From assembly GCA_026984935.1 (NCBI GenBank), contig JALSRD010000038.1, forward strand, positions 1 through 62,722: a stretch of DNA of 62,722 nt, written 5' to 3'. Below are positions 28,378 to 60,274 of this stretch, one piece after another; the stretch's first letter is position 1; each line of letters starts with the position of its first letter. This stretch comes from Desulfobacterales bacterium (GTDB lineage: Bacteria; Desulfobacterota; Desulfobacteria; Desulfobacterales; JALSRD01). The notes beneath the pieces were generated by a model. The model was given only the letters and a program-made list of their open reading frames with translations. It had not been told where the DNA came from and searched no databases. The position numbers and the translations under genes were made by a program.

Positions 28378-28401
28378 TGGCTCGACCGGGCTCCTGTTCT
28401 T

Positions 28402-30654: not shown

Positions 30655-30714
30655 GTTGTGTCGTTTCAAATTATCCGGCGGCGCCGAAATTGATGGAAAG
30701 ATACAAGGTGTTCT

Positions 30715-32504: not shown

Positions 32505-33250
32505 GCGTCGGGCTCCAATGGATCTGTTTTGTGGCACACGGCTGCGATTTTCTTTGTGAAAATCCGGTTGGATTTGCCGTAAAACTTAAAACTCATTCTC
32601 AATACCATTTGAACGACTGCATCCAGTAGCATGCCGACGGTGTTGAGCGGGTTTTCGTAAAAAATATAGAGGTGCAGCGGAAATACACGAATTTTCCCGA
32701 ACCCGCTGTGCTGCAGCACCTGCCGCAGGCTGTATTCGGTCAGCGTATTGTAGTGGTCAAAATTCTGTGCCAGGGCCTCCGGGCCGGTAATGGGATTGGC
32801 GCCGTTCAAACTGTGCACGGCCAGCATGCCACCGGGCCTGAGGCTGCTGTGGCAGAGGGACAGGAAACGCCGGATCTCGTCCTTGGTCAGGTGGTTGAGT
32901 TCCTGTTCCGCAATAAGCACATCGTAGGTGTCCGGATGGCCTTCCAGGTGCGCAAAGGCATTTTCCACCCGACAGTTTAGGCGCCTTGCCCGGGCGTAGG
33001 CGATTTTCTGCGCGTCGCAATCGATTCCCAAAACATTTTTCACGCCTAACTGTCCGATCAGGTCGACAAAGTAGCCCGGACCGCAGCTGATCACCAGAAC
33101 TGCCTGCGACGGCTCCAGCGGCAGGTACTTGAGGTAGTTGCGCCGGTAAAACTTGTTGAAGGTCGTATAGCCTTTTTCGATATTTTCAGGTGCTTCCCAG
33201 AACGAGTCGAAGGGCTCGAAGCGGGCGGTAAGTGCTTTATCGATTTGCAT
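32501..33250 (-). CDS. class I SAM-dependent methyltransferase
   Basis: A 249-residue protein with motif I as VLVISCGPGYFVDLIGQLG, followed by LGIDCDAQKIAYARA and LIAEQELNHLTKDE. In motif I the usual E/DxGxGxG is altered to SCGPG, but the fold pattern is intact. The C-terminal region is rich in aromatic and hydrophobic residues and may touch the membrane. ATG 33250 has a strong ribosome site, GAGAGGAG at 33258-33265. It probably methylates a sugar or lipid intermediate. It overlaps the acyltransferase start by 4 bases, so the two are coupled. Confidence 0.85.
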   Translation of the reverse strand: MQIDKALTARFEPFDSFWEAPENIEKGYTTFNKFYRRNYLKYLPLEPSQAVLVISCGPGYFVDLIGQLGVKNVLGIDCDAQKIAYARARRLNCRVENAFAHLEGHPDTYDVLIAEQELNHLTKDEIRRFLSLCHSSLRPGGMLAVHSLNGANPITGPEALAQNFDHYNTLTEYSLRQVLQHSGFGKIRVFPLHLYIFYENPLNTVGMLLDAVVQMVLRMSFKFYGKSNRIFTKKIAAVCHKTDPLEPDA

Positions 33251-33257
33251 GCCTAAA

Positions 33258-33265
33258 CTCCTCTC
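33258..33265 (-). promoter_or_regulatory. strong ribosome binding site
   Basis: GAGAGGAG on the minus strand lies 7 bases before ATG 33250. It is one of the best ribosome sites in the window and fixes the methyltransferase start. Confidence 0.65.
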
Positions 33266-33311
33266 GGATCGATTTCACGGGCACCGTGGGCGGCGGAAGC
33301 GAACCGGCAGA

Positions 33312-34460
33312 TCAGGCTGTCAGCCGCCGATACTGGGCTTCGTACTGTTGCGCACAGACCCCGATGAAAAAGTTGCGCACATGGCGGCGGTTGAAATCGG
33401 CCATTTGCCGGCGCCTGCCCGGGTCCAGGATCAGGTCCCTGATGCGGTCGGCCAGTTGTTCCGGTTTTCCTACGGGCACCAGCACACCACTGCGCCCGTT
33501 CCCCAGAAAATCCACCTGGCCGCCGTTGTCGTAGCACACCACCGGCAGGCCGGTCGCCATGGCCTCCAGAAAAACGATGCCGAAACCCTCGTGCCAGCTG
33601 GCCGAAACATAAATGTCCGCCAGGTCAAGCAGTGCAAATTTCTCGTTGTCATTCACGTTGCCGAAAAAAAACACCTGGTCGGTCACATTCAGATCGCTTG
33701 CGGTCTGCTCCAGGCCCCCACGCTGCGGGCCGTCACCGATGACCAGCAGTTTGACACGTCCGTCGGCCAGGCGGGCGACGGCTTGAATCAGCTCGTGAAC
33801 GGCTTTGCGGCGGACGAGACGGCCCACCGTGATCAACAGGATATCATCTCCGTCGAAACCATAGCTGGCCCTTTTCGCCGGGACAAAGTGCGGTTCGGGG
33901 ATTCCGTGGGGGATCAGGGCGATGTCGCGCTGCACGTCGAAATACTTTAAAGCACGTCGCCGGATATCCCTTGACATGGTGACCACCGCATCGGAACGGC
34001 GCAGAATAAGCCCCACGGTCTGGTGCAGCATGGGCGCCCGGTGGGGGGACAGCTTTTTGCTGGGATCGTAGATGTCCCCGCCCAGCAACGACACCACGTG
34101 CGGTTTGTGAAAGATTCCGGACAAAAACAGACCGGAGGGCCCCGACGGGACAGCGAACATGGAATGGATCACATCGAAACGCCGCTTTCGCAGGATGCGT
34201 ATGCCGGACAAGAGGCTGGACGGGAAGAAAGCCAGCATGGAAACCAGGCTGGCGGCATTGCGGTCGGATCGGAAAGGCACCGGCACACGGAACAGTTCAA
34301 CGCCGCCTTGCGTTTCATGCGCCGGCTGGTTGCCATAGCGGCTGGTAATGAGCGCGATGCTGTGGCCACGCTCCACCAGCGCTTCGGCCAGCAGTTTATT
34401 CAGCACGCCGCCGCCGCCGCCCAGGGGGGGATATTCATAGTCTATCATCAGAATGTTCAC
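33312..34460 (-). CDS. GT4 glycosyltransferase
   Basis: A 382-residue GT4 enzyme. It starts at a GTG (34460) as MNILMIDYEYPPLGGGGGVLNKLLAEAL, with AGAGGTC-like ribosome site upstream. The Gly-rich loop is the acceptor-side hallmark. The donor side has SWHEGFGIVFLEAMATGLP with both Glu residues of EX7E. Middle segment LLITVGRLVRRKAVHEL is the usual hinge. Cytoplasmic sugar transferase in a unit with the SDR gene 32 bases upstream and the methyltransferase 61 bases downstream. Sugar unknown. Confidence 0.9.
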   Translation of the reverse strand: MNILMIDYEYPPLGGGGGVLNKLLAEALVERGHSIALITSRYGNQPAHETQGGVELFRVPVPFRSDRNAASLVSMLAFFPSSLLSGIRILRKRRFDVIHSMFAVPSGPSGLFLSGIFHKPHVVSLLGGDIYDPSKKLSPHRAPMLHQTVGLILRRSDAVVTMSRDIRRRALKYFDVQRDIALIPHGIPEPHFVPAKRASYGFDGDDILLITVGRLVRRKAVHELIQAVARLADGRVKLLVIGDGPQRGGLEQTASDLNVTDQVFFFGNVNDNEKFALLDLADIYVSASWHEGFGIVFLEAMATGLPVVCYDNGGQVDFLGNGRSGVLVPVGKPEQLADRIRDLILDPGRRRQMADFNRRHVRNFFIGVCAQQYEAQYRRLTA

Positions 34461-34492
34461 GCATGACCTCTGGTTTCGCTCGTATGAAAAGG

Positions 34493-35482
34493 CTACAGCA
34501 GGTTTTGACCCCGGTACCAGGCGGCGGTTTTAGCGGCGCCCCGCTCAAAAGACACGCGCGGTTGAAAGTTCAGCATCGATGCAGCCTTGGCATTGTCGAA
34601 GAGAAAGCTTTTTCGGAAAAAATCCAGCCGGCGGCGGTGCAGCGGGGGCTGAATGCCCAGTGGTTTGAGGGACAGTTCCATGGCCGCCGCCGTGAGCAGG
34701 AAAGGTGTCAGCGGGGCACGCAGGCGCGGCATGCGCTTGCCCATCACCTGGGCAACGGTGCGCACCATTTCCAATGTGGTGAGCGGTTCTTTTCCGGCCA
34801 GCACGAACACCTCGCCCAAAGCCGCCCTTTTTTCAGCGGCCAGCAGAAACCCGTCGATAAGATCCTGCACGAAAATCAGGTGGTGGATGTTGCCGCCGTT
34901 TCCGATGACAAAAAAAGTGCCCCGGCCGATTCCCTTGAAGAGCTTTAACAACCGCCGGTCGCCAGGCCCGTAGGTTTCGGAAATGCGGATGGCAACCACC
35001 GGCAACCGGTCCTTGACCGCCATCACGGCGCGTTCAGCCGCCAATTTGCTTTTGCCGTAGATATTGTCCGGCCACACCGGGGTTTTTTCGTCGATCACGC
35101 CGCCCAAAGCCGAGCCAAAAACGCCGATGGTACTGCCGTGAACGAAGCGCCGCACCCCGGCCAGCATGCCGGCCGCCAGCATCGTCTGGGTGCCGGTCAG
35201 GTTCACATCCCAGAACACCCGGTCCGGCACATTGGCCTCGTGCTGGGCCGCCGCCAGGTGGAAGACCACTTCGATGCCCTTAACGGCCAGGCCGACCTGG
35301 GCCTTGTCGGTCATCGACCCTATTCGGACTTCGGCCCCTTTGGTCTGCAGGAGACGCGCGTTTTCCTTTTCCGCCGGTGTGTTCAGCTGGCCGTAGATGC
35401 GCACGCTGTCACCGCGCTGCAGCAGGTTCAGTGCCAGACGCGAACCGATAAACCCCGTACCGCCGGTAATCAGTGCGTTCAT
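34493..35482 (-). CDS. NAD(P)-dependent epimerase/dehydratase (extended SDR)
   Basis: A 329-residue extended SDR. It has nucleotide-binding MNALITGGTGFIGSRLA, the catalytic YGKSK and the C-terminal segment SFLFDNAKAASMLNFQPRVSFERG typical of the 3-beta-HSD/dihydroflavonol-reductase-like branch of sugar epimerases. ATG 35482 is chosen: GGGGAGG lies at 35496-35502, and the longer frame has no support. It lies 19 bases after the flavoenzyme gene, which suggests that the two act on one substrate (for example oxidation then reduction, an epimerisation). That is inference. It does not look like the RMD or GDP-fucose synthase that would follow Gmd. Confidence 0.85.
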   Translation of the reverse strand: MNALITGGTGFIGSRLALNLLQRGDSVRIYGQLNTPAEKENARLLQTKGAEVRIGSMTDKAQVGLAVKGIEVVFHLAAAQHEANVPDRVFWDVNLTGTQTMLAAGMLAGVRRFVHGSTIGVFGSALGGVIDEKTPVWPDNIYGKSKLAAERAVMAVKDRLPVVAIRISETYGPGDRRLLKLFKGIGRGTFFVIGNGGNIHHLIFVQDLIDGFLLAAEKRAALGEVFVLAGKEPLTTLEMVRTVAQVMGKRMPRLRAPLTPFLLTAAAMELSLKPLGIQPPLHRRRLDFFRKSFLFDNAKAASMLNFQPRVSFERGAAKTAAWYRGQNLL

Positions 35483-35501
35483 TGTCGCAACATCGCCTCC
35501 C

Positions 35502-37175
35502 CTATGCCCATGCCGGGTAGCTCCGGCGAAGATCTGCAATTTCGTTCTGCACTTTACGGCCGTTCCAGCCCAGCTCGCCCGCCATCAGCGCCGCGCAAGT
35601 GGAAACGGCCCGCCGTGACGGCATCTTGCCGCTTCCCAGATCGGTGCGCCGCATAACGACGTCGGAAAGTTTCCGGGCCATTTCGTGGCGTACGGCGTGC
35701 AGCACCTCGCACTGCAGCACATGCGATCCATCGATAGCCGGCGGTTTTAGGGGGACCTGATCCGCCAGTGCCAGCACCCTTGCCCACTGCGAGCCGTAAT
35801 TGCGGCACAGGCAGCGGGCCATTTGGTCATCTATATCCAGCGGTGCGGATTTCCTGGCCCGTGCGACCAGTTTTTCGAAGCTGCCAAAGTCTCCCCCGTA
35901 AATCGGGACGCGCGTCGAATCAACATCCCGCTGTTTCCGCCCCAGGCGCTGCTGGATACGGTCCACGGCGGCAGCCGCCATGCCGCGGGCCGTTGTGGCG
36001 CGTACACCGATCAGGGTCAGCAGGCCATCGACACCATGGGCGCGGGCATGGTCGATAACCTGGGAACGGTGCCCGAAACTGATCTGCCCGGCCGCCTGGT
36101 GCGACTCTTGGCCAAAAAGCGTCAGGCCCATGTTGATCATCAGGATTTCGTTTTCAGACAAGAGCAGTCCCGGATAGGCGCGGTTGACCTCCCGCACGTA
36201 GCCGGAGAGCTCCGCTTTGCTGACCGTCAGGGTTTCCGGAGGCCCGTGCCAGACCTTGTGCCAGACGCCGATCAGGGTGAACTCGCGCCAGGGCACCGCA
36301 AAGAGGTGACGTCCGCCGCGGTCTACCAGTGTGTCGGCATCCTTGGTGTCCGTGGCCAGGGCCAGTCCCGCCGTGCTTTCAAAACGCCTGTTCACGACAA
36401 AGGCCAGGTCCCGCGAGAAAGTGGGTCGCGGCCGAAGGCGCAACCCCAGCCCGGGCTCCATGATGCGGTGGGCCCAGGGTCCGGCCGTGTTCAGCACCAA
36501 CCGCCCCCGGATCTCCAGCGTATTTCCGCCCAGTTCGTCGGTGGCCGTCACACCGAAAACGCGCCGGCCGCGTTTCAAAAAGCCCGTGGCGCGTACATAG
36601 TTGGCGCAAACCGCGCCTTTGGCAGCTGCCGAGTGGATAAAGCTCAACACCAGGCGTGGCGGGTTGTACATCTGTCCTTCTTCGAATACCGCCGCACCGG
36701 TGAGTCCCCGGCGCCGGATTCCCGGAAAACGCCGGATAACCTCGGCGGCGGAAAGAAAACGGCTGGGCCGGATTTTTTTCGCGGGCAAAAGGCCGCGGTT
36801 GCGGTCGACGGTCAACGCGTCATAGAGCAGCATTCCGCTGCCCAGAAAGGCCTTGCCTTTCACGCCGTGGCCGTATGTGGGAATGACAATCGGCAGGGTG
36901 TGCACCAGGTGCGGGGCGATGCGCAGCAGCGCGGATCGTTCCCGGCTGGATTCGCGCAGACGTCGGAGATCGGCATGCTGCAGGTAACGAATGCCGCAGT
37001 GCACCATCTTAAAGTGATTGGCGGACGTGGCGTGCGAAAAATCATGTTTTTCGATCAGCGCCACGGAAAAACCGCGCAGGGACGCTTCCCACGCCGAGCA
37101 GGCGCCAAAGATTCCACCGCCGATCACCACCACGTCAAAGGTGCGGTCAGCCAGGCTGTCAAGGTCGCGAATCAT
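35502..37175 (-). CDS. FAD-dependent oxidoreductase, glycerol-3-phosphate dehydrogenase (GlpD/DAO) family
   Basis: A 557-residue flavoprotein. The FAD site is [14 protein letters not shown] (15-28) with the acidic [28 protein letters not shown], which is the GlpD pattern (ASGTSSRSSKLIHGGLRYL in typical members, diverged here). The C-terminal alpha-helical part of GlpD is also present (about 430-520). Divergence of the Ser/Lys substrate loop and the location suggest a sugar- or polyol-phosphate oxidase of the glycan pathway rather than aerobic glycerol use. It is coupled by ATGA overlap to the SGNH gene upstream (37172-37175). Family firm, substrate inferred. Confidence 0.85.
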
Positions 37176-39504: not shown

Positions 39505-40437
39505 TCAGGGCAACCGGACGGTCGGTTGAAAAATGCGGTAGAGAACAGGCAGATGGACCCGGAACAGGATCAGCATGGCCAGGGTACAGCCGGACACGTA
39601 GATGATAAAACCGCGCTGCTTGTAAAGCTGTTCCGGATACTGGGCCGGACTGTCCGGCAGGAAGCCCAGGTTCATGTACCAGCCGATAAATCCGGCGACA
39701 AGCGGTATGGACAAAAGCAGCTCCAGGCGATAGCGCATGATGAACACTCCGAAAAACAGGCCGAAGGCTACCGCATAATAAATGATACTGATCAACAGCC
39801 GCTGCTCGTTGTAGTATCCGAAGCTGTCCCGGTAACGTCTTGCGGTTTCCGGATCCCGGATGCGGCGTAACTCGGCAAAGCGTTTGACGCCCATGAAGAA
39901 AGCCCCGATCATCCAGTAGGCGGCCACCAGCGAAACCGGCGGGAGTTTCGACATACCCGCAGCATACCACCCCACCAGCAGCCGGATGGGATTGTTGACC
40001 GATTCGCTCAACACATCCAGGTAGGGTTTGTCTTTCAGGCGAATGGGCGGGATGTTGTAAAGGCACCCCATGACCCACAGTGACAGCACGGATGCAACAA
40101 ATTCCGCTCCCAGCCGGATTGACAGCCCGGTGCCGATGAGGGCCAGCACCAGCCACTGGATATAGCCGATGCGGACATTGACCAGGCCTGACGGCACCGG
40201 CCGATGCCTCTTGACCGGGTGCAGGGCATCGCGGGGGGCATCGATGATTTCGTTGATGACATAGTTGCTGGAGGCAATGCAGCCGATGGCCAAAAGTCCG
40301 ATGACAATGCGCGGCACGAGGCCGGCCTGGATCTGCCAGTGGTGCTCATAGACGGCCAGCACGATACCGGGCAGGATGAAGATATTCTTAAACCAGTGGT
40401 CGAAGCGTGCGATCTGGAGATAGGGCTTGATGGCCAT
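39505..40437 (-). CDS. UbiA-family prenyltransferase, decaprenyl-phosphate phosphoribosyltransferase-like
   Basis: A 310-residue polytopic protein. First Asp-rich motif is NEIIDAPRD (62-70), followed by HPVKRHRPVPSG; the second region is KDKPYLDVLSESV. The VKRFAELR segment (184-191) matches the KR-x-AEL motif of the subgroup that includes decaprenylphosphoryl-5-phosphoribose synthase. In mycobacteria this enzyme joins phosphoribosyl pyrophosphate to decaprenyl phosphate as the first step to the arabinose donor; in Azorhizobium NoeC has a similar role. Here it may make a ribose or arabinose donor for the GT-C enzymes. The subgroup call is from motifs only. Confidence 0.85.
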   Translation of the reverse strand: MAIKPYLQIARFDHWFKNIFILPGIVLAVYEHHWQIQAGLVPRIVIGLLAIGCIASSNYVINEIIDAPRDALHPVKRHRPVPSGLVNVRIGYIQWLVLALIGTGLSIRLGAEFVASVLSLWVMGCLYNIPPIRLKDKPYLDVLSESVNNPIRLLVGWYAAGMSKLPPVSLVAAYWMIGAFFMGVKRFAELRRIRDPETARRYRDSFGYYNEQRLLISIIYYAVAFGLFFGVFIMRYRLELLLSIPLVAGFIGWYMNLGFLPDSPAQYPEQLYKQRGFIIYVSGCTLAMLILFRVHLPVLYRIFQPTVRLP

Positions 40438-40459
40438 GAGATGCTCTCGAAAAATCAGG

Positions 40460-41299
40460 TTAACCGGTCAGATAGGCGATCAGCGCCTCCTTGCGGGGAA
40501 TTTTCAGCCAGGTTAATTTGTGGTGCCAGATGATCAGGCCCGCAAATCCTGTGCATAAAAGAAACCACAGCAGTTTGACGACGTAGACGCGGCTGGCTGG
40601 TATGTTTCGGCGGATGAAGTTTTCGTCTGAGGCGATGTTCAGCGTGGGCCGCACATGCCCCTTGCTGGCCAGGCGGGCTGCCCCGCCGACCAGTGTAAAT
40701 CGGTTGCTGGTTTTGGGCGTGCCGGCAACCTGCAGTATATCGGCGCCGCGAAAGGCCGCCAGCGGGATCGTCCGCCCCAACACCCGTGTGCCAAAGGAGA
40801 TCTTCAGGATGTCGTAGGATTTCGGCGCCCGGCCGAAGTAAATTTCCAATGCTCTGCGATGTCCCCGCACAGCGGCCGGCAGGCTGAAAGCGATGGTCAC
40901 CGCCTGCCGGCTCGGTGCCCCGTGGACCGTTTTGAAGCAATCCCGGCGGCCGGGGAAAAACTGCCGCAGCAAAAAGTCGGTCGGTCCTGCAATCGAGCGC
41001 AGGGTCACGGAAACAGAGGTTACCGGCAGGCGGTTATGCCAGAGAAACAGGCCGGCAGAAACCAGGATCGACACAAAAACACCGCGCCGGATCTTTTTCC
41101 GGATACCCGGCGAAAACGTACTGGCCAGGTAGCAGCATAGGGCACTGGCCAGCAGACATGCAAGCCAAAAACGGTGAAACGGCCGCTGGCGGGTCAAAAT
41201 GAGTGCCAGCTCGATGCCGAAAAAGGTGGTCAGTCCGATGAGAAGAGAGCTGCCGATGCCATCAGCCGCTTTCTTTGCGGCTGGCCGGATCTCGTCCAT
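40460..41299 (-). CDS. hypothetical membrane protein with central beta domain
   Basis: A 279-residue protein with three N-terminal hydrophobic segments (about 15-100). They are followed by an extracytoplasmic region of about 140 residues with strong beta-strand alternation (VTIAFSLPAAVRGHRRALEIYFG and NRFTLVGGAARLASKG) and one C-terminal helix (about 240-262). ATG 41299 is chosen, 19 bases after the stop of the upstream gene; ATG 41362 would overlap that gene by 44 bases. No known family recognised. It lies between a UbiA gene and a GT-C-like paralogue, so it may be an accessory subunit that holds sugar or lipid substrates (inference). Confidence 0.6.
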   Translation of the reverse strand: MDEIRPAAKKAADGIGSSLLIGLTTFFGIELALILTRQRPFHRFWLACLLASALCCYLASTFSPGIRKKIRRGVFVSILVSAGLFLWHNRLPVTSVSVTLRSIAGPTDFLLRQFFPGRRDCFKTVHGAPSRQAVTIAFSLPAAVRGHRRALEIYFGRAPKSYDILKISFGTRVLGRTIPLAAFRGADILQVAGTPKTSNRFTLVGGAARLASKGHVRPTLNIASDENFIRRNIPASRVYVVKLLWFLLCTGFAGLIIWHHKLTWLKIPRKEALIAYLTG

Positions 41300-41318
41300 G
41301 GCGATGGGCGTCTGGATG

Positions 41319-43556
41319 CTATCGAGCCGCCGCAAAGTAAACCTCCTTGACTTCCCAGGCATGCGCCGCGCTGACCGTGCCGGGTGTTTTGAGCAGCTCC
41401 AGTTTTACTTCATCACCCGCCAGGCGCCCCATGCCTTGCTTGGGCAGTGGTATGTGGTAGCTGTGCCACCGGGCGGTGACGGTTTCCCTGTCGATTTCCC
41501 GGTTGTCCAGCAGGATGTGCACATAGCGGCGGCAGTGGGCGCATTTCAGGAGATGGGCGGAGAAGCACAAAACCGGGTGTTTTCTCAGCATATCGAAACG
41601 GACGCGGCGCACGATCGATGTGGTGGTCATTTTCCTGCTCCGCAGGGCGTAAAGCGCATACAGATCATCCTGGTCCAGCAGTTGCCAGTCCTTTGCAAGT
41701 TTTTCCTCAGGGAAAGGCTCGTGCCATCCTTTTGAAAGCCAGTATTTTGCCTGCTTGTCGAGCACCAGGTAAACCGGTGGCCAGATCTGGGACAACCACC
41801 GGGTGATCTTGTCCAGCTGCCAGCCGGTTTTTTCCCAGAAAAACAGCCGCTGGTAATCGGGAGGCGTAAAGCCCGAGTATCCGTTGACGAGCAGGGGGAA
41901 GTTCCCGATGGTATCCATGGCAATGGTGGCGTCCACGGTGCGCACGGCGGCGGGCAGCTGGAAAATTACGCTTTCTTGCGGCAATTGCTGAATTTTACGC
42001 ACGATCCTGGATCGTACGATATAAGAATAGTTGGTGTAGCGGTATTTCATCATGGAAGCCTCGTAAACGAGCAGGCTCAGCAGCAGCGGAAACAGCCAGA
42101 TCAGGCGTTGATACCTCCGGACAAGCCGGCTCAAGGTGATGCAACCGGCCACCAGCAGGTAGATCAGAATAACGATCGCAAAACGCGTCAATCCCCGCAC
42201 GGCGCCGAACAGCGGCACCCAGGCGGCGATATCGGCAAAAGGCCCGCGGGCCACATCCAGGCGCACGGCATCGGGGGCGACGGTAATCAAGGGACCCAGG
42301 CTGACGAAAAAGCAGAACACCGCGGCAGCGCCCAGGCCTGCAAGGAACAGTTCGTTCCGATTGTCATCGTGTATCCGGAAAACACCTAAACCGTAAAGCG
42401 CGATCAGGGCAAAAGAAACCGTGTACAGCCATCGGTCGAACAGCGCCAGCCAGGCCACCCGGCCGTAGAAGGCATGTACACCGATGGTCGTCCAGAACAC
42501 GGCCCACAGGATGAACTTGGCTCCGGCCAGCAAATTTTCTGTCAAGCGCCTGGATTGCGCGCGCCTGACGAAGCGCAGCAGCCGCGCTGCCAGAAAGATC
42601 AGCGCCAGGATCCCCAGTACCGTGCCGGGAAAAAGATAGGTCTCCGCGGTGCGCGTGCGTGGTGTCGTGAAAAGCGGATAAATCAGTGCGGCGCAGTGGG
42701 TGTCCAGGTAGTGCATGGCCTGGGCATGGTGCTTGAGATAGTCCACGGCGGTGCGGGCGTAGCCGCCGTGGATGCGCAACAAGGCATAAGGGTAGAGATA
42801 GACGCCGGACACACCCGCCACACCGCCGACGATCGTGGCCAGCGAGAGCCAGAAGTTGCGCGCGAAAAACAGGTTGTGGTGGTTAGCCATGAAGGCCGCA
42901 AACACGAAACATAGAATGATAACGGACATGAATGTAAAGTACAGGCACGATGTAGCTGCCAGCCAGAACCCGGCCACGAACCACAGGGCATTTTTGATGT
43001 CCGGCTGCCGCAGCCAGCGGATCCACAGCCAAAGCAGGAGTGGAATCACAAAGACCAGCACCATGTTGAACTCGACATAGTAGCGCATGCGGTAGGGCAG
43101 CAGGCAGAACACAAAGGCGCCCAGATAGCTGACGGCGCGGCACACGTCCAGTTCGCGCAGCAGGGCGTACATCGTCAGGCCCGAAAGGGCCCAGAAAAAC
43201 AGCATGGAGGCGTTGAAGCCCAGGAAAAGGTTTTTTGAAACTGCATAAAGCGCTGCATACACAAATGACTCCGGCCACAGCAGTTCGGAAAAAGCCAGCG
43301 TATAGGCATGCGGGTAGAGAAAATTGGCGTGATAATCCGGCCGCAGGATGTGTCCGCGCAGGATGTTATGGGCGTTCCATGCCATCCACTGGCCCATCAG
43401 CCGCGGATCCCAGTGATCGGCCAGCCCGGTGAAAAAGTAGGCCCGCCAGGGCCGTACGCAGTACAGGATCACCACAGCCAGCAGAACAAACAGCAGCAGC
43501 ATCTCGACGGTACGCCGGATGAGCGGTGACAAGTTTCGCGGATCCGAAGCGGTCAT
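41319..43556 (-). CDS. large polytopic GT-C-like membrane protein, paralogue B
   Basis: A 745-residue protein, full-length paralogue of 28402-30654. It has about 12 membrane helices and a first loop HWDPRLMGQWMAWNAHN with an acidic residue in the GT-C position. A soluble C-terminal part (about 505-745) follows. The C-terminus again ends in strands DEVKLELLKT and WEVKEVYFA, a carbohydrate-binding-like sandwich. The two copies are 11 kb apart with other genes between, so this is not a fresh tandem duplication. It is probably a periplasmic glycosyltransferase or a related transferase. It starts at ATG 43556, 35 bases after the spermidine-synthase-like gene. Confidence 0.72.
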   Translation of the reverse strand: MTASDPRNLSPLIRRTVEMLLLFVLLAVVILYCVRPWRAYFFTGLADHWDPRLMGQWMAWNAHNILRGHILRPDYHANFLYPHAYTLAFSELLWPESFVYAALYAVSKNLFLGFNASMLFFWALSGLTMYALLRELDVCRAVSYLGAFVFCLLPYRMRYYVEFNMVLVFVIPLLLWLWIRWLRQPDIKNALWFVAGFWLAATSCLYFTFMSVIILCFVFAAFMANHHNLFFARNFWLSLATIVGGVAGVSGVYLYPYALLRIHGGYARTAVDYLKHHAQAMHYLDTHCAALIYPLFTTPRTRTAETYLFPGTVLGILALIFLAARLLRFVRRAQSRRLTENLLAGAKFILWAVFWTTIGVHAFYGRVAWLALFDRWLYTVSFALIALYGLGVFRIHDDNRNELFLAGLGAAAVFCFFVSLGPLITVAPDAVRLDVARGPFADIAAWVPLFGAVRGLTRFAIVILIYLLVAGCITLSRLVRRYQRLIWLFPLLLSLLVYEASMMKYRYTNYSYIVRSRIVRKIQQLPQESVIFQLPAAVRTVDATIAMDTIGNFPLLVNGYSGFTPPDYQRLFFWEKTGWQLDKITRWLSQIWPPVYLVLDKQAKYWLSKGWHEPFPEEKLAKDWQLLDQDDLYALYALRSRKMTTTSIVRRVRFDMLRKHPVLCFSAHLLKCAHCRRYVHILLDNREIDRETVTARWHSYHIPLPKQGMGRLAGDEVKLELLKTPGTVSAAHAWEVKEVYFAAAR

Positions 43557-43591
43557 TATTTCAGTCTTGCCGATGAAAATGGATGACCTCC

Positions 43592-45973
43592 TTAGGATAC
43601 GTTCCTGAAGGATCTGAACAGCAGAAAAGCGGTCAGATAGCAGGCCATGGCGATCATGAGCGTGTGGGTAAAGCCCAGGTAAAGCGACAGGATGACGCTC
43701 AGAAACCCGCCGATGACCGTGAACAGACCGTTGATCCCCCAGGCCCAGGCGATGGCCTGGTTTTTATGGGGTGTCCGTGACAGCCGTAATACACCCAGCG
43801 GAAAGGCCATTCCCAGAAAAAAAGCCAGTGGAACGATCATGGCCAGGGCAACGGCGATGCGCACCCACTGGCCGTCTTGCAGAAAAATACCGAACAGGGC
43901 GCCATGCAGGGTTAAAACGAGGCTCGAGGCGACACCGATGCCCAGAAACGGCACCCACCACCTTTTGTCGGGGCCGATGCCCAGCTTCTCGGATGCATAG
44001 CTGCCCACACCGGCACCCACCAGATACCCGAACACCACCGTGGTATAGGCATATAAAGGGTAACCGATCAACTTCAAAAAGAGATGGATGGAAACCAGCT
44101 CAAACAGGATGAACCCCAGCCCCAGCATGGCAAAATAACCCAGAACCTTTTTCTTATGCGCCCATTTTTCGCGGCCGACTCTGGAAAACAGCAGCGGTAC
44201 CAGCACCACCAACAGGGCAAACAAAACCGCCCCGGCACCGACCACATACAGGTGAATGATGTCCATGGGAAAGCCGGCGTGAATCTGTGAGTTCAGCAAC
44301 AGCGCCGTGGACAGATTCAACATATGGGCTTCGTCTTTTTTTAATTTTTTGAAACTGTATTTTAACTTCCGTAAGCAGTTGAAGTAGGGCTTGTCGTCGC
44401 TGCAGGCCGCCAGGCGGTAAGGGACGGCAGCCAGTAGTGCCGGGGGCATGCGGCCTTCAAAGGCCGCCTGAGGCAGAAAGGTTTGGTGGGGGTCAAGGGG
44501 ATCGACCACCAGCGGCGGCAGTTTTTTCTTGAGGGCCTCGATTTCCTCTTTTTTCCAGGGCGACATTTTAATCATGAAGGTCGGCAGGTTGTCCTGGAAA
44601 TCGGGGGCTTCGAACACAGCCACATGTTTTCGGAAATCCGTACGTCCCATCATTTTCCAGGCCACCGCCGCGGTCACCAGCATCTTGGGATAGACATGGT
44701 GGTTGATATGCAGGAGGCCGTCTTTTTTCAAATGGCTGAAGTATTCCACATAGGCCTCGGCGGTCTGCAGGTAGGTGGGGTCCAGGGCACTGCTGCCGGC
44801 GGCGATACTGGAACTGGTATGGTTGCTCATCATCTGGATGATATCGTAGCGCTTGTTGGTGCTGCGCAAAAAAGTGCGCCCCTCGCCTCTTTGAACGTGC
44901 ACCCTGGGATCGTTGAAAACATTTCCGGTAAACTTGGCGTATTTGGTTTTCCCCAGATGCACGACCTCCCCCACCAGTTCGATGCCGTCCACCGAACGGG
45001 CGCCATAGGCCAGCGCGCCCTTCATTTCCATGCCGCCGGCACTGCCGATAATCAGTACATCCTGATGTGTATCGCGCTTTAGAAAGTGGGACGCCACCAC
45101 CGGCCAACCCCAGAAGCCGTTTTTGATATTTCCACGGTCCAGGCTCCGGCGAAGTTTTTTATAGTCCCCGTCAAAGTAGTAGAAGTAGCTGGTCTGCTGG
45201 CCGCCGTCATAGGCGATCCACTTAATGCCCGGCCGGAAATTGATCACGTCGATCCTGGAAATCGGGTCCCAGTAGGTAAGCTCGATTTTGGACTTGTAGA
45301 TCAAAATGCCGCGTTTGTTCATTTGCAGCTCGATGTGATACAGATCCGGCTTGGCAAAAGGTGCCGCCGCCACCACCATACCGGCGATCACAAATACGAC
45401 GCCCCATTTTTTTTGTAAAAACACCCCAGCGGCCAGAAGCGCCAAGCCGGCGCCGAAAATAATCAGGCCCGCCGGTGTTATTTTCGGCAGCAGCGGGATA
45501 ATCAGCAGGCACCCCAATGAGGCACCGAACAGATCAAAAAAATACAGGCGCCGGATGTGCTGCGAGTAGCAGGCAAACACCGTGGTGAGCACCAGACCGC
45601 TGAACAGGAAAGGCAGGGTGGCAAAGAAGACCACGATGAAAATATTGCGAATGGCGTTCAGCGGATAGGCGTTTAGCATGTTCATGTAAAAATGGAACTG
45701 GTGCAGCACTGGGAAAATCGCGATCATGGAAACGGCCAATCCAATGGCAAAACAGGCGATCAGCGCATTGCGCCGGCGGGCGCCGAAGGGGCGCAGCGCA
45801 CCGATGACGCCGGCCAGCCCCAGCGAGAACATGGCCAGTGATATCACCATAAAACCCAGGTTGGGGTACCACAGAACATCGAAAATCTTGACCATGGTGA
45901 GTTCAAACAGCAAGGTGACCATTGCCACCAGGAAAACGCCGGCATTAATGTTCCACTTTTTAATTTCGTTCAC
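43592..45973 (-). CDS. membrane spermidine-synthase-like protein (SpeE fold, non-canonical)
   Basis: A 793-residue protein. Membrane block 1 is about 10-205. A soluble Rossmann domain of about 225-535 has GSAGGMEMK (310-318), acidic IEL (331-333) and GEGRTFL (363-369). Membrane block 2 is about 565-790. In true aminopropyltransferases the segment after GxGG ends in YDVIxxDxxDP with a catalytic Asp. Here it reads YDIIQMMSNHTSSS (376-389) and the Asp is absent. DDKPYF (526-531) is kept. So it should bind SAM or a similar nucleotide but is unlikely to make spermidine. It starts at GTG 45973. Many deltaproteobacteria carry related membrane proteins of unknown role. Confidence 0.8.
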   Translation of the reverse strand: MNEIKKWNINAGVFLVAMVTLLFELTMVKIFDVLWYPNLGFMVISLAMFSLGLAGVIGALRPFGARRRNALIACFAIGLAVSMIAIFPVLHQFHFYMNMLNAYPLNAIRNIFIVVFFATLPFLFSGLVLTTVFACYSQHIRRLYFFDLFGASLGCLLIIPLLPKITPAGLIIFGAGLALLAAGVFLQKKWGVVFVIAGMVVAAAPFAKPDLYHIELQMNKRGILIYKSKIELTYWDPISRIDVINFRPGIKWIAYDGGQQTSYFYYFDGDYKKLRRSLDRGNIKNGFWGWPVVASHFLKRDTHQDVLIIGSAGGMEMKGALAYGARSVDGIELVGEVVHLGKTKYAKFTGNVFNDPRVHVQRGEGRTFLRSTNKRYDIIQMMSNHTSSSIAAGSSALDPTYLQTAEAYVEYFSHLKKDGLLHINHHVYPKMLVTAAVAWKMMGRTDFRKHVAVFEAPDFQDNLPTFMIKMSPWKKEEIEALKKKLPPLVVDPLDPHQTFLPQAAFEGRMPPALLAAVPYRLAACSDDKPYFNCLRKLKYSFKKLKKDEAHMLNLSTALLLNSQIHAGFPMDIIHLYVVGAGAVLFALLVVLVPLLFSRVGREKWAHKKKVLGYFAMLGLGFILFELVSIHLFLKLIGYPLYAYTTVVFGYLVGAGVGSYASEKLGIGPDKRWWVPFLGIGVASSLVLTLHGALFGIFLQDGQWVRIAVALAMIVPLAFFLGMAFPLGVLRLSRTPHKNQAIAWAWGINGLFTVIGGFLSVILSLYLGFTHTLMIAMACYLTAFLLFRSFRNVS

Positions 45974-45975
45974 GC

Positions 45976-47667
45976 CTAGCTCTTTTCATTGTGATTTGGT
46001 GGCCCCTGGCAAAGGTGGAGCCACAAGGCCCAGTCCTGCCGGTCGGGAGTTGCAAAACCGGCAATACGGCCGGCCTTGATGACGTGGTTTTTTGCCGGTG
46101 CTAAGCGGCCGCTGCGTGGGTTGAGCCACCGGGCCAGAAAGGTACCGGAAGTCGTCGAAAGGTCGATGCCGAATTTCCCGCCCTGCATGGCGTACACGAG
46201 ATATTCATGTCCCGGGTCGGACAGGCACCAGGTTGTCGGAGACGTCGGCCGGACCCGATCTGCCGGCCGCATGTGCCATAGCGAATCCGCCATGTGTCTG
46301 CGGATAAAATTGTAGGTCGGCTGGATCACGCGGCACGCTTCAGGCGATTCGTAAGACCGGGGGTCTTTTCCGCCCGCATAGGGCATCTGTCCGATCAGCA
46401 ACGAGCCGCCGGCCATGAGAAAGGCCCAGGATTCCCTCCGCCCGGCGGGTATCTGGTGTAAAATCGCCTTATGCGGAAACCGGTCACGGTATTCACGCAC
46501 CTGGCGGTATATCTGCTGTGCCGTGGTGCCGTCGGGGGCGCGCATGCCGTGGCCGACATAGCGCTGGAGCTGCAACCGGATATTCCGCATCTGTGCACTG
46601 CCCGCAGCGGCGGTAAAGGCGCCCGTGAAACGACCCGGAATCTGGCGTCCGCCCGCCGGCGCGAACAGCCGACCGTCAGGGGTATACCACCAGTAGCGCA
46701 GGTCGATCACGGAGATCCGCCCCCGGCGCGTAGGATCCGCCAGCACGGCATCGACAACATCCCTGGTGCCGTTGACAGCCACCAGCACACGCTGGTGGTG
46801 TGCGTCCTCCCATGCAAAGACCGTGTCCAGCCAGAAGCGCATGAAGCTCAATGGGCCGGTATATTCCTGGCTGCACAAAAAAACCACGTTATGGTTGTAC
46901 CCCAACACGTCCAGGGTCTTGTTGATGTACATCCGGTGCAGCTTGCGGCGCACGGGGTTCGTGGTGTCGTAAAAGGCATCGGCCGCCGGAATACGATCGG
47001 GCAAAGCGGTTTGCTGGATGCAGTTGGCCGGCCGCCAGGGGAAATCCACGTAATGCGCCTGGCGTTCGAGCAGCGCGTGCTGCATGTACTGGTTGTGAAA
47101 AAGGATCGTGCCCTTGCGGTCGCACAAATCGGCAAAGGCTTTCAGACGTTTGAAATACCAACTGTTGAAACGCGTCAGATCGTAGAGCGGCAGGCCGTCA
47201 GCGGCCCTGCCGATGCGGCTGCGCGCCCAGGGCTGCTCCAGAAAAGGCCCCACGGCGTGCGCATCCAGGCGCGGGCGCGTGTCATGGGCATCCCGGCGCC
47301 GGTCGTACCAGAGGCCGAAATTGTGTTCGAACCCCGGATAGGCGAAGCGCAGCATGGCGTCTGTCAGTTTGTCCAGGTCTTCGGTGCGGTTGGGTCCCAC
47401 CCTGCCGGGCGCGTTGCGCGTAATGTTGGGACGCCGGCCCGCCCGCCACCAGCCGTTGTGCTGGGCATAGCCCCAGATGATACGGCCGTTTTGCACGAAC
47501 CAGCCGTTTTCGATGGTCAGCCCCCGACGGCCTGCCGCTCCGGCAGGCTGCGCAGCGCCGGCAAGCAGGACCGGCAGGCAGATACACAGACACAGGGTGT
47601 AAAAGCAACGTTTGCACAAATTCGCCAGATCACCCATTCGCTTCAATTTTTCATGCGATGCATTCAT
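45976..47667 (-). CDS. secreted TIM-barrel glycoside-hydrolase-like protein
   Basis: A 563-residue protein with an N-terminal signal or anchor (about 21-44). The body has the look of a (beta/alpha)8 hydrolase: FLCSQEYTG with Glu268 at a strand end, ISVIDLRYWWYTPDG, and a small C-terminal beta domain with FGIDLSTTSGTFLARWLNPRSG. The last element resembles the collagen-binding or IPT-like tail of some putative glycosidases. No family can be named. It is separated by 2 bases from the spermidine-synthase-like gene and by 128 from a GT-C gene. It may trim or edit the glycan in the periplasm (inference). Confidence 0.65.
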   Translation of the reverse strand: MNASHEKLKRMGDLANLCKRCFYTLCLCICLPVLLAGAAQPAGAAGRRGLTIENGWFVQNGRIIWGYAQHNGWWRAGRRPNITRNAPGRVGPNRTEDLDKLTDAMLRFAYPGFEHNFGLWYDRRRDAHDTRPRLDAHAVGPFLEQPWARSRIGRAADGLPLYDLTRFNSWYFKRLKAFADLCDRKGTILFHNQYMQHALLERQAHYVDFPWRPANCIQQTALPDRIPAADAFYDTTNPVRRKLHRMYINKTLDVLGYNHNVVFLCSQEYTGPLSFMRFWLDTVFAWEDAHHQRVLVAVNGTRDVVDAVLADPTRRGRISVIDLRYWWYTPDGRLFAPAGGRQIPGRFTGAFTAAAGSAQMRNIRLQLQRYVGHGMRAPDGTTAQQIYRQVREYRDRFPHKAILHQIPAGRRESWAFLMAGGSLLIGQMPYAGGKDPRSYESPEACRVIQPTYNFIRRHMADSLWHMRPADRVRPTSPTTWCLSDPGHEYLVYAMQGGKFGIDLSTTSGTFLARWLNPRSGRLAPAKNHVIKAGRIAGFATPDRQDWALWLHLCQGPPNHNEKS

Positions 47668-47686
47668 TGTCGCTCTGATTCAGCGC

Positions 47687-47703
47687 GTTGCGCTCAGCGC
47701 AAC
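47687..47703. other. short perfect inverted repeat upstream of the glycosidase-like gene
   Basis: GTTGCGCTCAGCGCAAC is a 7-base arm palindrome with a 3-base centre. It lies 20 bases before ATG 47667 in the 128-base gap. It could be an operator or an RNA hairpin near the ribosome site. No T-run follows, so not a terminator. Confidence 0.3.
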
Positions 47704-47795
47704 GGGCGTTGCCGCCGGCCGCCCTGCCCTGTTTCCAAAGCAACCGGCATTCATCTGCCGCTCTCCGGGATTCATGCGGTTACTACAGTGCAGGG

Positions 47796-49970
47796 TTAAA
47801 GAAACATGAAAAGCCGAAAAGCCGTCAGCACATAGTACCCGCAGCCTGCGATGCGCACATACCGGCTGCCGTGCATGACAAGACCGATCAGCAGGGCATC
47901 GATCAGCACCAGTACACCCATGGGCAGGTGGTAGGTGATATCCGGCGGATGGATGCCGTACGCGAGCAAGATGACCGCCACCAGGGTGGCCACGGAAACC
48001 GCGATCAGCGTGGCAGCCGAACATACGGATCCGGCACCTGCCGCCGCAGGGCTGTTTTGCGGCACCTGATTCTTATGCGGCAGCACCCGGGCCAGGAGCG
48101 CCAGAAAGGCCAAAGGATACAAGACAAAGGCCGCGTAGTTGAATTCATACTGGTCCCAGAGCAGCAAACCCCGTTTCGCATGGTGCCTGGCAAAGGTGCG
48201 CACCAACTCCCGTATTTCAGCCAGCCGCAGGCTGTGCGTCAGTCGTTCGATACGCTGTGGCAGCTGCTGCGAAAGGGGGATTTTTTCGAAAAAAAGCTCA
48301 GCGGATTTTCCCAAGCCAGCAGGTGCCGAATAGCCGGCCAGAAAATGCTCCTTGATCAGGGTGTAGTTTTCATGCAGGTAAAAATGTTTGACCATGGACC
48401 ACGGCAGGTTGGCGGCGGCGAAAACCAGCACCAGCAGGCCGGCGGCACTTATACAGCGCGTCCAGGCTTGGCGGTGGTCTTTTAGCTGCCGCCAGACGGC
48501 CAGCAGGAAGAAAAGCGGAATCCCCAAGGCGCTGCCGGCATGCATGTTGGCGCCGATGCCCAGCAGCATTCCGGACAATCCCCAGTCCGCAAGCCGCAGG
48601 CTGCCACGCATCATTAAATACAGGCCGCCCAAAAAAAAAGCCGCGCCGGCCATCTTGTACCAGGTCAGGTAATAATTGACCAGGATAAAGGCATTCAACG
48701 AAAAGGCCGCCATGAACAATAGGCGGCTTGACAATCCGGTATAGCGCCGTGCAAACGCCAGCGCCGGGAACAGCACCAGCAGGTTAAAGCCTGCGCCGAT
48801 CATGGTATAGACCAGGTAGGAGTTGGCTAAAAGCTGCGAAAAATTTCGCAGCATAACACGCCAGACCGCGTAAATTACACCGGGCAGTATGCCGCGATCT
48901 GCGACGTCGTATATCAGCTGGTGGTTGCCGTAATATTTTTCAAATGCTTCACCATTGGAAATGGCCACTCCGTTGACATATTGGAAAACGGCGTCGTGGG
49001 CGTGAAAGGCATTGAAGGTCTTGGGTCCCGCGATGCTGGTGTACCATGTATTTTCCAGCGGCAGATTGGCATTATGCGCGATCAGAAAGCACACACCCAA
49101 GAGTAACAGGATGTAACCGGCCAGTTCGCTCCGCGTTTCCCGCAAGCGGGACACAAAAGCGGCATGCCGCCTGAAAAATACATTCAGAGTGGTGAGCAGC
49201 GGCAGGCCCAGGAAGATAAAGCCACAGACTGCCAAGTCCGGGTGCGGCAGATGCAGCCTGTACCATAAAAGCCATATCAGATAGGCGGCAAGGTAAAACC
49301 CCACGCTGTAGGCCATGAACAGCACCTGGAAAGTGTTGTCCCGCGTATGCTCACCATGGATCAGGGAATACAGGAGCATTCCAGGCAGCAGGATAAGAAG
49401 CGCCAGGATCACGGCGATGGCATACACCCAGATGGATTTGTCCCGCCAGCCGGCCGGGTGCAGGGAAACCGCACGCAAAACGGCGGTGCCGTAGTGTTCG
49501 CCGCTTTCAAAGTCGATCCGCAGCGTGTCATAGTCGCCGTCCGGCAAAAGCGCGTTGTATTCGTGCCGCAGGGCGCCGGCCTTTCCCACCGGAAGCGCGA
49601 TGAAGCGCGACCGCATATACGGCTGCCCCTCAAACCCGAGGTAAATGCGGATCTGACGGATCTTTTCAAGTCGTCCAAAGGACAGGTGCACCTTGGTGTG
49701 CTGCACACGGCCCTGCAACGGGATGACGAAATAGGGGTTGTGCCGCAACGCATAGCGCATGGTAAGCTGGGAAGCGGTGCGGGACAGAACTTCGATGGCA
49801 TGAAACTCACGAATGCTGTCCAACCCGATGGTGCCGGTGGTCCGGCGCGGCACCGGGCGCCATCCGCGGAAAGCCGAGAAAACAAGTGCCGCGGCCAGCA
49901 CAAAGAGCACACTGAACAGCACTGGAAAAAAAGCGGTCGATTGCGGCCGGCGTGGAACAACTGATGTCAT
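47796..49970 (-). CDS. polytopic GT-C-like membrane protein with N-terminal beta domain
   Basis: A 724-residue protein. A membrane helix at about 14-33 is followed by an outside beta-rich region (about 40-160) with DTLRIDFESGEHYGTAVLRAVSLHPAG. About 11 membrane helices follow. A large loop has KTFNAFHAHDAVFQYVNGVAI, with the Asp of HAHD as a candidate catalytic carboxylate. The architecture equals that of 22795-24696. It lies 20 bases downstream of the HAD-UbiA gene, so it may use the phosphoribosyl-lipid-derived donor. It is a likely periplasmic glycosyltransferase without a known family name. Confidence 0.7.
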   Translation of the reverse strand: MTSVVPRRPQSTAFFPVLFSVLFVLAAALVFSAFRGWRPVPRRTTGTIGLDSIREFHAIEVLSRTASQLTMRYALRHNPYFVIPLQGRVQHTKVHLSFGRLEKIRQIRIYLGFEGQPYMRSRFIALPVGKAGALRHEYNALLPDGDYDTLRIDFESGEHYGTAVLRAVSLHPAGWRDKSIWVYAIAVILALLILLPGMLLYSLIHGEHTRDNTFQVLFMAYSVGFYLAAYLIWLLWYRLHLPHPDLAVCGFIFLGLPLLTTLNVFFRRHAAFVSRLRETRSELAGYILLLLGVCFLIAHNANLPLENTWYTSIAGPKTFNAFHAHDAVFQYVNGVAISNGEAFEKYYGNHQLIYDVADRGILPGVIYAVWRVMLRNFSQLLANSYLVYTMIGAGFNLLVLFPALAFARRYTGLSSRLLFMAAFSLNAFILVNYYLTWYKMAGAAFFLGGLYLMMRGSLRLADWGLSGMLLGIGANMHAGSALGIPLFFLLAVWRQLKDHRQAWTRCISAAGLLVLVFAAANLPWSMVKHFYLHENYTLIKEHFLAGYSAPAGLGKSAELFFEKIPLSQQLPQRIERLTHSLRLAEIRELVRTFARHHAKRGLLLWDQYEFNYAAFVLYPLAFLALLARVLPHKNQVPQNSPAAAGAGSVCSAATLIAVSVATLVAVILLAYGIHPPDITYHLPMGVLVLIDALLIGLVMHGSRYVRIAGCGYYVLTAFRLFMFL

Positions 49971-49990
49971 GATTTTTTGGCTTCCTGCGT

Positions 49991-51460
49991 TTAAATGGCC
50001 AGCAAAACAAATATCAGTGCCAGCGCAGCTACTGCCAGGCTGGCAACATCATGCAGCGCAAACACGATGGGGTCTTCGTGCATTTCCATGCGCCCGGCCA
50101 GCAGCCAGACCCGGCTGATCCAATAGAGGATCAGCGGGCACAGCGCCCAGAGCATATAGGGGTGTCGGTACAGGATTCGGACCTGTGCGCTGTTGATATA
50201 CAAGGCCATCACCAGTACGGCCAGATAGCCGCTGCAGCCGCCCAATACGCGCATGGTTTCCAGATCGTGGGTCCAGTACCCCCGACCGGCAATTCTTTTC
50301 AGCTTCCCGGCGTCGTTGAGCGGTGCAAGCTCCGAGTAGCGCTTGACGATGGCCAGGGAAAAAAAAATAAACATGGCAAATGCCAGCAGCCAGAAGGAAA
50401 TCTGTATGGAGGTGGCGGTGCCGCCGGTGATCAGGCGCAGGGTATACAGCCCCGACAGGAGCAACACATCGATGACCGGCAGGGTCTTCAATTTCATGGA
50501 ATAGAGCAGCGAAGACAGCACATAAACCGCCATGAGTGCCCCGAAAAGCGGCGGCAGGGAGAGGGCCAGGGCAAAAGCGGTCGCCATCAGCAGGGGAACG
50601 GCGGTCAATCCTGTCAGCAACGAGAGGTCACCGGCGGCAAAGGGCCGCAGGCGCTTTCGCGCGTGCCCGCGGTCGGCGGACAGGTCGAGCAGGTCATTCA
50701 GCAGGTAAACTCCGGCGGCGCACAGTGAAAAGGACAGAAAACCGATGCCCGCCGCCTTGACCAGGCGCGGCTCCCCAAAACGGTGCGACATGATCAGCGG
50801 AACGAAGAGCAGCAGGTTCTTGAGCCATTGGTGCATGCGTACGGCCCGTATCAGCGCCCGCCAGCGCGCGGATTGCAGCCCAAAAACCTGCGTCCTGCCG
50901 GTAGTCTCCCGGGCGGCGCGTTGTACACGGGCCGGCGCATTGACGACAATCGCCTTTCTGGCATGCGGCCATATCTTCAGGTCCGAGCGGTCGTTGCCCG
51001 CATAATCGAAGCCGCGATCCCCGTAGCGCGCCTGCAACGCCTTCAGCTTGGCGCTGCCGCGCAGGTTGATGCCGTCGCGGCTGGCCAGCACGTCATCGAA
51101 AAGGCCTATATGCTGTGCCACCTTCCGGGCGATTTTTTCATCGGCCGCCGTAACCAGTATCAGCCGCCGTCCGGCCGCCTTCTGCCTGCGCAGGTAATCG
51201 GTGAAATCGGTTTGGTAGGGTAATAAATCCACAGGAAGATCGACGCGCCGGGCAATCTCGCGCTTGAAATTGGCTTTGCCCCCAGCCAGCCAGGCCGGTA
51301 CCTGGAGCAGGCTCCAGGGGCGCTGTTTGACCAGCACCAGGAAAGACTCCAGCAGGGTATCCGTGCGCACCAGCGTGCCGTCTAGATCCACGCACAGCGG
51401 GATCTTTGCAGATGCGCCGTTGTCGGGTGTTGAGGATGGATCACAGGTGGTTTTGTGCAT
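49991..51460 (-). CDS. HAD phosphatase-UbiA fusion, phosphoribosyltransferase-like
   Basis: A 489-residue fusion. The N-terminal HAD domain (about 20-180) has all motifs: VDLDGTL with Asp25 and Asp27, VTAAD with Thr104, and YAGNDRSDLKIWPHA. The C-terminal UbiA domain (about 200-485) has NDLLDLSAD (255-263), ARKRLRPFAAGD and VKRYSELAP (372-380). It also has the start MHQWLKNLLLF typical of the decaprenyl-phosphate phosphoribosyltransferase group. One chain could make phosphoribosyl-lipid and remove the 5-phosphate, two steps that are separate proteins in mycobacteria. That coupling is inference from domain order. It is the second UbiA enzyme of the window. Confidence 0.88.
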   Translation of the reverse strand: MHKTTCDPSSTPDNGASAKIPLCVDLDGTLVRTDTLLESFLVLVKQRPWSLLQVPAWLAGGKANFKREIARRVDLPVDLLPYQTDFTDYLRRQKAAGRRLILVTAADEKIARKVAQHIGLFDDVLASRDGINLRGSAKLKALQARYGDRGFDYAGNDRSDLKIWPHARKAIVVNAPARVQRAARETTGRTQVFGLQSARWRALIRAVRMHQWLKNLLLFVPLIMSHRFGEPRLVKAAGIGFLSFSLCAAGVYLLNDLLDLSADRGHARKRLRPFAAGDLSLLTGLTAVPLLMATAFALALSLPPLFGALMAVYVLSSLLYSMKLKTLPVIDVLLLSGLYTLRLITGGTATSIQISFWLLAFAMFIFFSLAIVKRYSELAPLNDAGKLKRIAGRGYWTHDLETMRVLGGCSGYLAVLVMALYINSAQVRILYRHPYMLWALCPLILYWISRVWLLAGRMEMHEDPIVFALHDVASLAVAALALIFVLLAI

Positions 51461-60267: not shown

Positions 60268-60274
60268 AAGCGGG

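Follow-up and report, generated by a model that had tools for sequence, protein, structure and literature searches.

Lipid donors derived from phosphoribosyl pyrophosphate (PRPP) are a recently recognised way to the pentofuranoses of bacterial glycans. In Citrobacter youngae, ORF15, a protein that joins a HAD phosphatase domain to a UbiA-fold membrane domain, has been biochemically proven to make polyprenyl-phosphate ribofuranose (polyprenyl-P-Ribf) from PRPP, and the three-component pentofuranose system consists of such a phosphoribosyl-lipid synthase (PPPRS), a MATE flippase and a GT136-type glycosyltransferase of the GT-C class (Kelly, 2024; PMC11127046); the literature on UbiA-type polyprenyl phosphoribosyltransferases (PRTs) in glycans yielded nothing further. 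Here we analyse a 62,722-nucleotide stretch (the window), contig JALSRD010000038.1 (C38) of a Desulfobacterales genome (G000; 3.89 Mb, 99.45% complete), which carries two UbiA genes, both on the minus strand and both where an earlier annotation made from the letters alone (the original prediction) had placed them: a lone UbiA-fold protein (UbiA1, 39505-40437, 310 amino acids) and a fusion of HAD and UbiA domains (HAD-UbiA, 49991-51460, 489 amino acids). We estimate a probability of roughly 70% that this locus holds two UbiA-fold polyprenyl-phosphate phosphoribosyltransferases whose products are used by GT-C-like proteins; the two belong to different clades, a point absent from the original prediction, as are the failure of curated models to catch the clade of the lone UbiA and its link with HAD genes, and both are probably membrane enzymes that attach ribose-phosphate to a lipid carrier.

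Both window proteins match the UbiA family in Pfam (PF01040), while the HAD family PF12710 is matched by HAD-UbiA only, and reading of the sequences finds in both the Asp-rich motif and the KR-x-(A/S)EL segment that had been reported for them. The assignment of both to the DPPR-type phosphoribosyltransferase subgroup, first made from these motifs, is now supported by residues, profile scores, a tree and predicted structures. Five UbiA proteins are encoded in the genome (UbiA1, HAD-UbiA, an MqnP-like nucleosidase-type fusion, an IspH-UbiA fusion and one more), and alignment onto Rv3806c, the DPPR synthase of Mycobacterium tuberculosis, shows that the PRT residue set from R22 to E195 is missing from the other three.

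The HAD-UbiA fusion

Judged by its sequence, HAD-UbiA is a protein of a known kind, the PRK08238 or PRP-PPPRS architecture, for which a combined phosphoribosyl-lipid synthase and 5'-phosphatase activity is predicted. It scores 632.9 bits against the curated equivalog model NF006088/PRK08238 (cut-off 351), with residues 15-489 aligned to profile positions 7-480, and its closest solved relative in a profile search is Rv3806c (E = 1e-27). The UbiA domain (approximately residues 201-489; 49994-50860) has the Asp-rich motif N-D-x2-D-x3-D-x2-H-x2-KR-x-RP and the second segment KRYSEL, and keeps Rv3806c residues R22, K28, Y70, N73, D74, D77, D81, K87, R90, Y138, K143, Y157, K191, R192 and E195; Q135 is replaced by S and K208 by I, both at sites that vary within the group. 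The N-terminal HAD domain (approximately residues 20-195; 50876-51403) carries DLDGT and the remaining catalytic positions, with D25, D27, T104, K138 and D160 unchanged across seven homologues. In the AlphaFold model (mean predicted local distance difference test score, pLDDT, 87) the membrane half resembles Rv3806c, its best structural match being 8j8j, and the HAD half resembles SerB-type phosphatases. The PF12710 match and the intact catalytic residues fit the complete phosphatase domain of the original prediction, and the proposal that one chain makes and dephosphorylates phosphoribosyl-lipid is supported for HAD-UbiA, yet this was already published for ORF15 (PMC11127046).

Variants of the fusion occur among relatives. 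Three UbiA proteins of 313-361 amino acids (L077, L082 and L083) fall within the HAD-UbiA clade of the tree and may have lost the HAD part, as they are too short for a full HAD domain. At 6952-10533 of L091 (genome G052), one 1193-amino acid frame joins a multi-transmembrane (multi-TM) N-terminal part (∼715 amino acids, no family match) to HAD-UbiA, a fusion type seen in a single genome among 290 of the order. GLNGT stands in its HAD motif where DLDGT would be expected, and the phosphatase is therefore probably inactive. The first 715 residues have no credible relative in the PDB; if that part is a GT-C enzyme, this protein would be a donor synthase fused to its own user.

DprE1 and the sugar of the lipid donor

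In four relatives (G048, G109, G367 and G023) the HAD-UbiA gene lies directly 5' of a gene for a DprE1-like FAD protein, followed in G048 and G367, the two examined by Pfam, by a short-chain dehydrogenase/reductase (SDR). The FAD protein of G367 matches the solved DprE1 with E = 1e-61 and the NCBIfam DprE1 model with 329 bits, which is under the cut-off of 500. A search that was positive in G109, G048, G367, G023 and G088 detected no DprE1 in the window's genome, in the congener G091 or in the three other genomes of the class that bear UbiA1; in the window's genome PF04030 had no match, and PF01565 matched only three open frames (1001, 608 and 339 amino acids). Because a 99%-complete genome lacks the gene that adjoins HAD-UbiA in several relatives, the sugar donor here is likely to be a ribofuranosyl lipid or another epimer made without DprE1, and not an arabinofuranosyl one. 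The analogy with mycobacterial arabinan synthesis drawn in the original prediction therefore fails.

Arabinofuranosyl- or xylofuranosyl-lipid might still be formed, and an arabinan-like glycan built, if the SDR (34493) and the FAD oxidoreductase (35502) encoded downstream of HAD-UbiA, and close behind it in G091, epimerised its product, much as a single SDR serves for xylofuranose in C. youngae O2. We regard this as quite improbable, given that the pair is part of a gene set seen without UbiA nearby in several genomes, that the FAD protein is GlpD-like (DAO) and not VAO/DprE1-like, and that DprE1 itself is missing. The set in question, which occupies 26425-37175 of the window, comprises AsnB, LPG_synthase_TM, an acyltransferase-like protein, a methyltransferase, a GT4, an HpnA-like SDR and the GlpD-like FAD oxidoreductase. 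Its recurrence in several genomes with no UbiA gene nearby led us to drop the 34493-37175 pair as DprE1/DprE2 substitutes.

UbiA1 represents a separate clade

UbiA1 (PF01040, 83 bits) carries the Asp-rich motif N-E-x2-D-x3-D-x2-HP-x-KR-x-RP and the second segment KRFAEL. It passes no curated model, its best scores being 88 bits for PRK08238 (cut-off 351) and 79 bits for PRK12324 (cut-off 234), and as these scores are under the cut-offs we did not place it in the curated DPPRS or PRK08238 families; its clade is overlooked by the curated models used here. A scan of 84,980 species genomes recovered 47 relatives that share 45-74% identity with it. Their labels include Desulfobacterota, Gammaproteobacteria, Planctomycetota, Acidobacteriota, Bacteroidota, KSB1 and Chloroflexota, although many come from metagenome-assembled genomes (MAGs) and may be mislabelled; within its own class UbiA1 is rare (5 of 389 genomes). 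A gammaproteobacterial MAG (L010, 8403-14083) has UbiA1 flanked by ImuB-like and DnaE2-like genes, with no obvious glycan locus.

A profile of 43 UbiA1 members finds Rv3806c with E = 4.5e-24, AfUbiA with 1.6e-12 and DGGGP synthase with 6e-6. Mapped onto Rv3806c, with residue roles taken from PMC10994848, the 49 aligned members keep R22, K28, Y70, N73, D77, D81, K87, R90, Y138, K143, R160, K191, R192 and E195 (one sequence is gapped at R22 and K28), so that the K/R cluster and the lipid-phosphate lysines (R22, K28, K87, R90, K143 and K191) are present across the clade, single gaps aside. Where prenyltransferases have their second Asp-rich motif, UbiA1 has an invariant K185-R186..E189. Its model (pLDDT 94.5) is closest to PRPP-bound Rv3806c (8j8j_A; Z 26.9, root mean square deviation 2.7, 284 residues aligned), ahead of AfUbiA (Z 23.6). 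In a tree built without NoeC, PSPA7_6246 and ORF15, the UbiA1 group (97/99) and the PRT group (96/96) both exclude the prenyltransferases, although the joining branch (95/65) is weak and the outgroups are long; the placement called for by the original prediction gave no grouping of UbiA1 with that family.

These results bear on the simplest alternative, namely that UbiA1 is an ordinary UbiA prenyltransferase for quinone, heme or another lipid that sits in a glycan locus by chance. The UbiA fold would fit, as would a weak resemblance to BchG and to prenyltransferases of archaea and a second loop that is nearer to those proteins than to Rv3806c; the PRT-like KR..E in place of the second Asp motif, the preference of both profile and fold for Rv3806c, the linkage to HAD and multi-TM genes described below, and the fact that the genome already encodes an MqnP-type enzyme plus two further UbiA proteins make it highly improbable. 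We read UbiA1 instead as a second phosphoribosyl-lipid synthase clade, one that works with a separate phosphatase.

UbiA1 travels with HAD genes

Clustering of neighbours placed the HAD genes near UbiA1 in three subfamilies: HAD-IA (C3), upstream in nine loci; HAD-IB (C7), in six and mostly downstream; and YqeG (C15), upstream in four. HAD-like open reading frames (ORFs) recognised by motif make up 12 of the 55 within 150 bp of UbiA1 vs 7 of 452 farther away (Fisher test, 2e-8). When 120 near and 120 far ORFs were scanned with Pfam, PF00702 headed the near list (16 members) and PF12710 had five, while both were outside the top 25 of the far list, the last entries of which had three members. 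HAD-UbiA is present in 13 of the 47 UbiA1 genomes, in some apparently as fragments, and an adjacent HAD gene occurs in 1 of these 13 vs 17 of the 34 without HAD-UbiA (p = 0.008). Large multi-TM proteins are likewise enriched beside UbiA1 (19 of 111 against 12 of 245, p = 4e-4; one of the 19 is a HAD-UbiA), with PMT_2 matches among several neighbours. The p values for the HAD genes are optimistic, since the split by HAD-UbiA was chosen after the data had been seen and related genomes were counted separately. By tblastn the C3 HAD lies beside UbiA1 in G094 and G165, and in the syntenic locus L025 a HAD gene takes the place of the window gene at 40460; no C3-type HAD that could serve UbiA1 was found elsewhere in the window's genome, in a search run without a positive control. 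The UbiA1 clade thus travels with HAD genes, and this linkage is a genomic marker for it.

Proposed pathway

From the families to which the proteins belong, their conserved catalytic residues and predicted folds, the linkage of the genes and the lack of DprE1, we infer a pathway in which each enzyme would convert cytoplasmic PRPP to polyprenyl-P-ribose-5-phosphate, UbiA1 too using PRPP as its donor and a polyprenyl-phosphate as its acceptor. In HAD-UbiA its own HAD domain would strip the 5'-phosphate; for UbiA1, which has no such domain, this step may fall to the product of the adjacent HAD gene in other genomes, and here to the HAD domain of HAD-UbiA or to another phosphatase. The resulting ribofuranosyl-lipid would then be flipped and used by the GT-C-like proteins encoded nearby to decorate a surface glycan.

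Several observations weigh against this pathway. The UbiA1 clade has a fixed E at D74, a fixed N at Y157 and, in 48 of 49 members, G at Q135, and it does not keep K208 of Rv3806c; in Rv3806c or related enzymes the first three sites contact Mg/pyrophosphate (PPi), the 5'-phosphate and ribose (PMC10994848). The branch that joins the UbiA1 and PRT groups (95/65) is weak by the SH-like approximate likelihood ratio test (SH-aLRT), and the outgroup branches are long. Approximately 17 of the 47 UbiA1 genomes have neither an adjacent HAD gene nor HAD-UbiA. The GT-C identity rests on hydropathy, and a profile of proteins of the 41319/28402 type finds no match in the PDB. No flippase is linked, in that no MATE-family gene was recognised beside either UbiA gene, the MurJ/MatE-type gene of the window being ∼48 kb away; nor was a MATE- or GtrA-type flippase among the 25 commonest neighbour families of UbiA1.

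A comparison of the PRPP pocket had been suggested in the original prediction; by residues, most Rv3806c positions are kept in both proteins, and D74, Q135 and Y157 are changed in UbiA1. Those changes (D74E, Q135G and Y157N) are specific to the clade, other PRTs having D at 74, a polar residue at 135 and F or Y at 157, although Q135 varies also among accepted PRTs. Together with the distinct second loop of UbiA1 (YNxPPxRxKDxPYLDVLSESVNNPIR) and the retention of two different enzymes in one locus, they would suit a PRT scaffold whose specificity has shifted to a different 5-phospho-pentosyl donor or to a different phosphorylated lipid as acceptor, so that the two UbiA proteins would provide the locus with two different sugars. 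To our knowledge PRPP is the single common donor of this type, which counts against such a change, as do the HAD partners, which fit a 5'-phosphate, and the retained residues for PPi, 5'-phosphate and lipid phosphate (R22, K28, Y70, K87, R90 and K191); we consider it unlikely. In a bolder and equally doubtful form, the UbiA1 clade would form a family of its own across several phyla, transferring phospho-pentose to lipids through an altered pocket and giving a lipid-linked sugar distinct from polyprenyl-P-Ribf, the 5'-phosphate being removed by HADs recruited independently from three subfamilies.

If UbiA1 is, as we favour, a second clade of phosphoribosyl-lipid synthases, HAD linkage offers a simple genomic marker for it and the phosphatase-partner rule can be tested, while D74E/Q135G/Y157N give a direct handle on how UbiA-type phosphoribosyltransferases choose their donor and acceptor. 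As the clade is missed by curated models, phosphoribosyl-lipid synthesis may exceed its annotation in Planctomycetota, Acidobacteriota, Desulfobacterota, Gammaproteobacteria and others.

The surrounding glycan locus

The window surroundings form a glycan locus on one strand, transcribed in the order HAD-UbiA, GT-C-like protein (47796), DUF6298 protein, SpeE-like membrane protein, GT-C-like protein (41319), membrane protein (40460) and UbiA1. In G091 one run holds HAD-UbiA with its GT-C-like partner but no UbiA1; the UbiA1 gene of that congener lies on another contig with 40460- and 28402-like genes, beside GT4 and AsnB; the two sets look like two modules that here are close together. All features with coordinates in the following sentences of this paragraph are on the minus strand. 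Seven proteins, starting at 22795, 28402, 41319, 47796, 55180, 57504 and 60818, are multi-TM by hydropathy (∼8-13 TM each), which agrees with the predicted count of about seven GT-C-like proteins, but none has its own Pfam match. The protein directly downstream of HAD-UbiA (47796-49970) has ∼12 TM and no family match, and the pair is kept in G091 (L087). Two genes upstream of UbiA1, 41319-43556 (∼10 TM) has homologues beside UbiA1 in L009, L011 and L025 and a paralogue at 28402-30669, a homologue of which adjoins UbiA1 in G091. Between 41319 and UbiA1 lies a membrane protein (40460-41362) with no Pfam or NCBIfam match and a 29% homologue at the same place in L011/L086. Where three polyprenyl-phosphate GT2 enzymes had been predicted we find two clear ones, both PF00535: 21661-22599, with a C-terminal TM pair, and the GtrB-like 59269-60318, with a C-terminal hydrophobic region by sequence reading. 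A MurJ/MatE-family protein (1239-2636; PF03023 197 bits, PF01554 48 bits) is a possible but distant flippase candidate.

Elsewhere in the locus, 45976-47667 encodes the DUF6298 protein (381 bits), which also has a Collagen_bind_2 match and is possibly a secreted glycosidase-like enzyme, and 43592-45973 encodes a 793-amino acid protein with a spermidine-synthase-like domain flanked by two multi-TM halves. Two of the other UbiA proteins of the genome are themselves fusions on minus strands: a nucleosidase-type domain (futalosine hydrolase / MTA-SAH nucleosidase-like) with an MqnP-like prenyltransferase (contig C63, L001 1399-2901), which suggests the futalosine route to menaquinone, and IspH (LytB) with a UbiA-family domain in a single 579-amino acid frame (contig C106, L005 1381-3120).

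Comparison with known systems

The C. youngae O1 ORF15 system shares with HAD-UbiA the order HAD then UbiA and, going by its published description, the tested residues (the HAD Asp; N, D, D and D; R and E of KR-x-(A/S)EL), and a GT-C-like gene that is conserved with HAD-UbiA adjoins it here (PMC11127046). Unlike that system, HAD-UbiA has no adjacent gene for a MATE-type flippase, and the locus also encodes UbiA1, which is unfused and comes from another clade. Rv3806c has its fold and PRPP-site residues in common with both window proteins, but it is unfused and its partners Rv3807c and DprE1/DprE2 are absent or unrelated here; UbiA1, in a clade of its own, further differs from it at D74, Q135 and Y157. 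By description, the PA7-type PPPRS of Pseudomonas aeruginosa pilin arabinosylation is, as proposed for the window, a Gram-negative case of lipid-linked pentofuranose with a GT-C acceptor step (PMC11127046), but that pathway makes arabinofuranose through DprE1/DprE2-type enzymes, whereas the window's genome is without DprE1. AfUbiA (4tq3) and DGGGP synthase (6m31), finally, share the overall fold and the first Asp-rich motif with the window proteins, but have a second Asp motif where these have KR..E, no K/R cluster, and lower profile and fold scores.

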